From Dromiciops gliroides (taxonomy: Eukaryota; Chordata; Mammalia; Microbiotheria; Microbiotheriidae): a DNA stretch of 64,000 bases. The position numbers were made by a program, and so were the translations under genes. The notes beneath the pieces were generated by a model, which saw only the letters and a list, made by a program, of their open reading frames with translations, was not told the origin of the DNA and searched no databases. Positions within the stretch are counted from its first letter, which is position 1. Each line of letters begins with the position of its first letter. The stretch spans positions 469,262,617 to 469,326,616 of the forward strand of contig NC_057864.1 in NCBI RefSeq assembly GCF_019393635.1, read 5' to 3'. Positions 32,700-33,140 of this stretch are shown here, piece after piece.

Positions 32700-33140
32700 T
32701 TCCCCAATTCTCTGCAAGCCAAAGTGGCAGGGGTTTCTGAATTGTCATTGATCTTTCTAATGCTGTCATAATGTTCTTTATGGTAGAAAATGTGGAGTTC
32801 TCTAGCATCAGTTTTGTCTGTGCCACTGATTTTCAATAAAGGCTGATTTAATTGATGAACCACAACATTCAGCTGATGCTGCTTAGCAAATGCTACAATT
32901 GTATCATTTCCTCCCCACTTTCCAAATTTCTTTAATTCATCAACATATTCTTCAAAAGGGGAGTCATTTACTATAAAAGACTCAAACTCTTGTCTATGGT
33001 TAATCATATAAGAAGCAGCTTCTTGTCTGTGTCTGAGATGATTTCTACAGTGACCTTCTAGCTGGTCTGCTAAAGCCCTAAAAAGGCAATTTCCGTCTCC
33101 TGATACTTTACGAAGACTGAGTCCCAAAGCATTTAACTGA
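32700..33140 (-). other. OTU deubiquitinase-like domain (OTUD3-related) captured by the retrovirus
   Basis: OTU domains are cysteine proteases that remove ubiquitin. This one has the catalytic block GDGNCLFRA (Asp and Cys), the run GNDTIVAFAKQHQLNVVVHQLN and the histidine block EHYDSIRKINDNS. These match cellular OTUD3 nearly block by block, with QLEGH.RNHL.HRQE also shared. It has no introns, although the OTU domain of host OTUD3 is split among several exons, which suggests capture from a processed mRNA. It is continuous with the retroviral integrase C-terminal domain and occupies the place where env would be expected. OTUD3 targets are known in mammals, but what the viral copy acted on is unknown. 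Confidence 0.85.

Follow-up and report, generated by a model that had tools for sequence, protein, structure and literature searches.

The capture of host mRNAs by endogenous retroviruses (ERVs) and the occurrence of OTU proteases in RNA viruses are both already known. Crocodilian ERVs are described as having captured the mRNAs of nectin3 (CrocERV31) and KIT-ligand (PMC4299795); OTU domains are reported from nairoviruses, arteriviruses and tymoviruses (PMC3968130); and Ginger1 DNA transposons encode a Gypsy-type integrase/transposase that carries an OTU or Ulp1 protease domain at its C-terminus (PMC2836005). Among marsupials, a survey of 19 Australian genomes names three class I clades, MEGrv 1-3 (PMC11334065). 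Here we describe an element found in a stretch of 64,000 nucleotides from Dromiciops gliroides (NC_057864.1, positions 469,262,617 to 469,326,616; hereafter the window), in which an OTU domain derived from the cellular deubiquitinase OTUD3 continues in frame from the end of a retroviral integrase. The reading that we favor, at a probability of roughly 0.8, is that a class I retrovirus captured OTUD3 mRNA once, long ago, where env would stand, and that the captured part has since served as a functional C-terminal domain of Pol.

The element resembles the crocodilian ERVs in that a host mRNA was captured, the capture is common to a lineage, and purifying selection is reported, and it resembles the nectin3 case of CrocERV31 in that the capture came at the expense of env (PMC4299795); it differs in that the crocodilian ERVs, as described, carry cell-surface or ligand proteins, whereas the marsupial element carries an intracellular protease fused in frame to integrase. 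With Ginger1 it shares the order of an integrase followed by a C-terminal OTU domain (PMC2836005). However, Ginger1 elements are DNA transposons with terminal inverted repeats, whereas the marsupial element has gag, reverse transcriptase (RT) and long terminal repeats (LTRs) and took its OTU domain from vertebrate OTUD3, so that the arrangement is convergent; identity with a Ginger1 transposon is ruled out by the LTRs and RT. The nairoviruses, arteriviruses and tymoviruses likewise bear an OTU domain, but these are RNA viruses in which its origin is given as uncertain (PMC3968130), whereas here it is recognizably that of OTUD3. MEGrv 1-3 are likewise class I, and the betaretroviral MEBrv 3 of dasyurids offers a parallel for the recent amplification of an env-less marsupial ERV, the comparison being one of descriptions, not of sequences (PMC11334065).

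In the window the class I retroviral part lies on the minus strand and reads in the order RT, RNase H, integrase, and an open reading frame (ORF) that joins the integrase end to OTU. MLV stands for murine leukemia virus.

35549..36124, minus strand: RT piece of pol (Pfam RVT_1, E 2e-26)
34604..35545, minus strand: pol segment encoding RNase H (Pfam RT_RNaseH_2 and RNase_H, E about 2e-12)
33371..34600, minus strand: RNase H end, then the zinc-binding domain of integrase and its catalytic core (Pfam Integrase_H2C2, E 9e-8; rve, E 5e-13)
33275..33367, minus strand: integrase C-terminal domain of MLV type, in frame with OTU (MLVIN_C, E 4e-9, residues 2-31)
32657..33367, minus strand: ORF of integrase end and OTU, 236 residues (full length covered by each of the 150 scored genome matches)
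32720..33145, minus strand: OTU domain, OTUD3-derived, residues 75-216 (human OTUD3 4bou, E 4e-59)
33086..33088, minus strand: predicted catalytic cysteine codon, residue 94, in GDGNC (by motif position and homology to OTUD3 Cys76 as given in PMC10566363)
32771..32773, minus strand: predicted catalytic histidine codon, residue 199, in EHYD (by motif position, role by homology)
31064..32656, minus strand: AT-rich tail at the usual place of env, lacking long ORFs, with a purine-rich tract before the LTR (by its match to the tails of other copies)
30500..31063, minus strand: 3' LTR of a second type, its 3' border not fixed (by a sequence break exactly at the boundary of tail and LTR)

About 31 C-terminal residues of an MLV-type integrase, a part that also matches the solved integrase 2m9u, pass in frame into the OTU domain within the ORF at 32657-33367. 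Pfam OTU (PF02338) is recognized at ORF residues 90-197 with an E value of 4e-14 and 53.5 bits against a curated cut-off of 23.3, and both catalytic motifs, GDGNC (residues 90-94) and EHYD (residues 198-201), are present. A preliminary description, made from the letters of this stretch, had placed OTU catalytic blocks inside a class I ERV, in agreement with the RT, RNase H and integrase found upstream on the same strand. It had also judged the segment closer to cellular OTUD3 than to viral OTUs; the closest solved structure to the ORF is indeed that of human OTUD3 (4bou), and two chains named RNA-dependent RNA polymerase, which we take to be OTU domains of nairoviruses, match far more weakly (E 2.5e-5 and 3.8e-4). 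The copy in the window is damaged, an in-frame stop separating the ORF of the integrase core from that of the integrase end and OTU, and the RNase_H match within 33371..34600 falls below the Pfam cut-off. By the sequence around the break, the element is broken off inside RT at about 36110, just upstream of the RT piece, and the gag and 5' LTR parts of two pieces retrieved from other copies (L010 and L012) have no match in the window. Its tail, in the two longer pieces, agrees with those of other copies at 93-94% identity. Around the provirus, between 27340 and 44803, many copies of a dispersed repeat of about 170 bp (GGGGCAGCTAGGTGGCRCAGTGGATA...) occur on both strands, probably a short interspersed element.

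The host's own OTUD3 gene lies on contig C3, where eight matching exons account for residues 1-394 of the Antechinus protein, and it groups with marsupial OTUD3 in the fuller tree (support 91/90). Three introns, at GDG, FEKH and PLWQ, divide its OTU domain among exons 1-4, and none of them is present in the viral segment; this matches the intronless state noted in the preliminary description and points to an origin from spliced mRNA. Over 142 aligned codons, with one codon missing, the viral OTU is 65.5% identical to host OTUD3 and keeps the catalytic motif. Unlike the cellular protein, it is fused to integrase and lacks everything past exon 4, including the UBA domain: homology reaches to the end of host exon 4 and no further, and no match to later exons was found in the tails, or to any other part of the OTUD3 gene. 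Toward the other end, the segment PAAKEQRNRTEP of older copies aligns with ALAKERRNRTEP of marsupial OTUD3, from which it follows that the capture began within exon 1. Taken together, and as far as comparison of sequences can establish it, the viral OTU came from OTUD3 by way of a stretch of spliced mRNA that starts inside exon 1 and runs through exon 4.

The joint of integrase and OTU is common in this genome. In a search of 3.30 Gb in 17 contigs, seven of them of at least 85 Mb, the ORF gave 3568 candidates at first look, and all 150 matches that were scored cover residues 1-236 at 96-100% identity; the copies bearing OTU are spread over the seven chromosome-size contigs. A piece of integrase as query gave 3962 candidates, and 149 of the 150 scored were practically equal in score. 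These candidate numbers, which are not counts, suggest thousands of copies. By hand count of the table, 103 of the 150 scored integrase matches lie in an open pol-OTU frame of 1392 residues.

For six copies with this frame the 5' and 3' pieces were retrieved separately, and eight more copies gave LTR pieces. The young element consists, in order, of a 446-bp LTR, gag, a TGA codon, pol-OTU, a tail of 1.4-1.7 kb, a polypurine tract and the 3' LTR. Directly after the 5' LTR, at 2977-2998 of L010 and at the corresponding position of the other 5' pieces, stands TTTGGCTGACCACGAAGAGG, the presumed primer-binding site. The gag frame is open across the retrieved part in all six young copies, gag and pol share one frame with a single TGA between them (3/3 copies), and Gag_p30 of MLV type was recognized in the one copy scanned (E 2e-22). 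The LTRs are paired and have TG...CA ends, and a target-site duplication of 4 bp flanks the provirus, exact in seven of nine pairs and with one mismatch in the other two. By these LTR ends and duplications, together with Gag p30, MLVIN_C and the order gag-TGA-pol, the element classifies as a class I (gammaretrovirus-like) ERV.

Complete LTR pairs were obtained from 9 of the 14 copies tried and differ at 0-3 of about 446 sites (0-2 in the six young copies). With 2.2e-9 substitutions per site and year, a rate quoted in PMC13297096, this dates them at between 0 and about 1.5 million years. Old copies are under-represented in these dates, because six of the nine pairs come from copies chosen for the 1392-residue frame and all nine from copies resembling the OTU of the window.

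Older copies were recovered with the OTU domain of host OTUD3 as query (150 scored of 2361 candidates, eight retrieved), the top rows being such copies, up to 72% identical to OTUD3. All eight have the same joint between integrase end and OTU, the frame of L116 being broken further upstream, and they end alike in ...ETPATLACRELG or a decayed form of it. The preliminary description had asked whether several loci share the joint and how retroviral copies fall in a tree with OTUD3; beyond the 150 young matches the joint is thus found in every older copy retrieved, and old and young OTUs fall together in a single clade (support 100/100).

Between old and young lineages the OTU has dS 0.9-1.1 and dN 0.17-0.22 (synonymous and non-synonymous divergence), a dN/dS of 0.17-0.22. 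Against host OTUD3, dN/dS is 0.08-0.14 in those seven of eight comparisons for which dS is computable; for the young copies in this comparison synonymous sites are saturated (proportions of differing sites pS 0.85-0.87, pN 0.21). A codon model of the ERV copies alone gives a maximum-likelihood omega of 0.35 (log likelihood -1614.7, against -1652.6 with omega 1), a difference of 38 log units that is approximate, kappa having been fixed at 2 in the omega-1 run. The ratios of 0.17-0.22 between lineages and about 0.1 against the host, with the omega of 0.35, argue that the OTU was held by selection while the lineages diverged, and long purifying selection between lineages is shown by these substitution patterns. 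The six closest old copies compared among themselves give 0.3-1.7, which fits the decay expected after insertion. The copy in the window keeps 72 of the 93 sites that are invariant in 22 OTUD3 proteins. In 40 young copies picked by OTU similarity, OTU is open to codon 237 in 36 and both motifs are intact in 38, the exceptions being L031 (ENYD) and L056 (DRNC). In 20 copies picked by integrase (plus-strand rows chosen by hand, frame lengths mixed), OTU is open in 17, with one codon lacking, displacement of a whole OTU by an upstream indel, and truncation accounting for one copy each of the rest, and both motifs stand at the expected place in 17.

We propose the following course of events. A class I (gammaretrovirus-like) retrovirus would have taken up a spliced OTUD3 mRNA, from the interior of exon 1 to the end of exon 4, and the captured part would have been fused in frame onto the integrase end, replacing env. 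The resulting Gag-Pol-OTU element may then have founded several lineages with the same joint and persisted as an env-less retrotransposon, one lineage of which would have amplified very recently. The claim of the preliminary description that a retrovirus took a host ubiquitin protease from mRNA is supported by the spliced structure, the common joint, the paired LTRs and the constrained old divergence.

Several observations weigh against this account. An AlphaFold model of the ORF is poor, with a mean predicted local distance difference test (pLDDT) score of 48.5 from 23 aligned proteins. Two trees place the OTU clade differently and do not agree on the donor: with young copies only it falls among mammals (95/93), weakly beside some eutherians, and with older copies added it stands beside all mammals (mammals without ERVs 88/83). 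In approximately unbiased tests a grouping of the ERV OTU with marsupials is not rejected (p-AU 0.317 in a further tree, 0.0501 with young copies only, 0.429 with older copies added), nor is a eutherian grouping in the tree with older copies (0.56); in the young-only tree the values are 0.063 with sauropsids, 0.035 with amphibians and 0.031 with mammals held together without ERVs. The viral branch is long, and the trees, with the marsupial and eutherian groupings both unrejected, do not fix the donor vertebrate. Some older copies have, close to the N-terminus, an RTEP motif like that of marsupial OTUD3, where Rattus has PEP; it gives only a hint as to the donor.

The evidence from within the young lineage also counts on this side. 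The 40-copy set, chosen by OTU similarity, is biased for a test of selection, and in 17 of the 20 integrase-picked copies (L108, L110 and L114 being dropped as out of register) singletons comprise 11 synonymous and 15 non-synonymous changes, which are small numbers, and the ten variants common to several copies are all non-synonymous. Among the older copies, an active-site residue or its neighbor is changed in four of eight (L115, L120, L121 and L122). Furthermore, the members of some sub-lineages (L023/L047/L050, L033/L038/L043/L046/L051 and L032/L041) seem to have a stop or frameshift of integrase in common, yet OTU, which follows it, is open in all of them except L047. There the OTU could not be produced as part of a full Pol, because the break lies upstream of it. 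Such sub-lineages are either derivatives mobilized in trans, which is probably the case where the integrase break is common to a group, or represent another route of making OTU.

That other route is the content of the alternative that survives best, in which the OTU functions as a separate small protein, made from an env-like spliced mRNA with a start at Met53 and acting in trans on antiviral signaling. The OTU is located where env begins, it stays open in the sub-lineages with broken integrase, and cellular OTUD3 is reported to remove K63-linked ubiquitin chains from MAVS, RIG-I and MDA5 (PMC10566363); we nevertheless hold this unlikely, as the frame is continuous with integrase in intact copies and Met53 is not conserved, being Thr in the young copy L042 and with no Met there in older copies. 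It is improbable that the OTU was captured once and is now functionless cargo that the virus amplifies passively: the weak and mixed selection signal of the young lineage and the changed motifs of four older copies would fit, but the dN/dS between old and young lineages was maintained over a dS of about 1, omega 1 is rejected within the ERVs with the reservation on kappa given above, and the motifs are intact in most young copies of both samples. That the copies are a host-domesticated gene family using OTU for the host is very improbable; long purifying selection would agree with it, but open gag and pol frames, near-identical paired LTRs and dispersal over seven chromosome-size contigs speak against it. 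Least of all can an OTUD3 processed pseudogene have fallen by chance beside or into an old provirus at this locus, as the preliminary description had considered for its own refutation: intronless as the OTU part is, the joint is common to all scored matches and all older copies retrieved, the OTU frame is in register with integrase, the duplications sit at the LTR ends of the provirus and no unique insertion with its own duplication is present, and the tail has no match to OTUD3 past exon 4.

In the young copy L009 the longest ORF within the tail has 83 residues, a further ORF of 117 residues crosses from the tail into the LTR, and in the older copy L123 the longest sense-strand ORF before the LTR has 67 residues; no env was found by this measure, the tails not having been scanned with an env profile. 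The tail of L123 is about 65% identical to the young tail, and this relatedness, with its lack of a long ORF, indicates that the loss of env probably dates back as far as the sampled lineages. With no env found, the present form most likely spreads within the germ-line cell. Mouse intracisternal A-type particles (IAPs) and the MEBrv 3 of dasyurids (PMC11334065) provide comparisons for such within-cell spreading. A stretch of about 295 bp (about 1329-1624 in L009 and L017) is present in the tails of two of six young copies and missing in four. In L070 (1377-2874; C3:614.33 Mb) a shortened sequence related to the tail, together with an LTR, lies on the same contig as host OTUD3, within about 20 kb of it, and at that locus no match to gag, RT, RNase H, integrase or OTU was found.

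At least three unlike LTRs stand on the same interior: the young 446-bp type (L011, 1377-1821), the type of the window (30500-31063), whose first 215 bases recur at 97% in L031, and a third type in older copies (L123, 1392-1938), in which L123 and L124 are 94% identical. This suggests that LTRs were exchanged by recombination.

As to function, the continuous frame of integrase and OTU in 103 of 150 copies implies that translation of Pol would in these end with the OTU. It would then be packaged like the other Pol domains, would remain on integrase or be cleaved off, and may travel with integrase in the reverse-transcribing complex. Because the active-site motif and most of the invariant OTUD3 residues have been kept by selection, we infer that the OTU is an active deubiquitinase forming the C-terminal domain of the Pol polyprotein; a benefit to the virus is inferred likewise. 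As target we put first, at something short of even odds, the integrase complex of the virus itself, which the OTU would shield from ubiquitin-directed destruction; such a target fits a fusion that acts in cis, and the Ginger1 transposases offer a parallel. Less likely, though plausible too, is host sensing through the K63 chains of RIG-I, MDA5 and MAVS, on which cellular OTUD3 is described as damping responses to RNA viruses (PMC10566363), and the remainder falls to other targets. OTUD3 is also reported to promote cGAS responses to DNA viruses (PMC10566363), an activity that would not help a retrovirus. The fullest version, in which an integrase permanently fused to a host deubiquitinase is borne in the particle and strips ubiquitin in cis off the incoming integrase complex, was selected across lineages and let an env-less element amplify in the germ line, is put forward tentatively, as rather less probable than not.

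The preliminary description knew of no retrovirus with such a gene, and no retrovirus with an OTU domain was found in the literature searched (titles and abstracts, subscription papers and preprints excluded). In its main text, the marsupial ERV survey (PMC11334065) uses neither the word OTU nor the word ubiquitin. Among 5.8 billion proteins, no pol-OTU fusion was apparent, in that no integrase appears in the names or precomputed Pfam domains of the best 120 of 304 matches (lengths about 130-413) and of 30 further matches (lengths about 441-1403), and 8 of these 30, rescanned with Pfam, had OTU-type domains only. Among the viral contigs of IMG/VR no relative was found. One Mytilus coruscus protein named OTUD3 (P0241) has two OTU stretches in one chain. 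Apart from the element, a cytochrome b sequence of mitochondrial origin lies in the nuclear DNA of L021 (1450-2592); it is open when read with the mitochondrial code, and is 92-93% identical to cytochrome b of many marsupials.

Retroviral capture of host genes is known; what is apparently new, within the literature searched, is a retrovirus with a deubiquitinase, and one whose integrase bears a host domain retained through several lineages. The finding ties ubiquitin, in a concrete way that is open to test, to the integration of retroviruses or their spread in the germ line, and the independent origin of an integrase-OTU arrangement in Ginger1 suggests that ubiquitin removal beside integrase has been repeatedly useful to mobile elements. 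With many near-identical young copies and older lineages in one genome, Dromiciops gliroides offers a dated evolutionary series of such an element.
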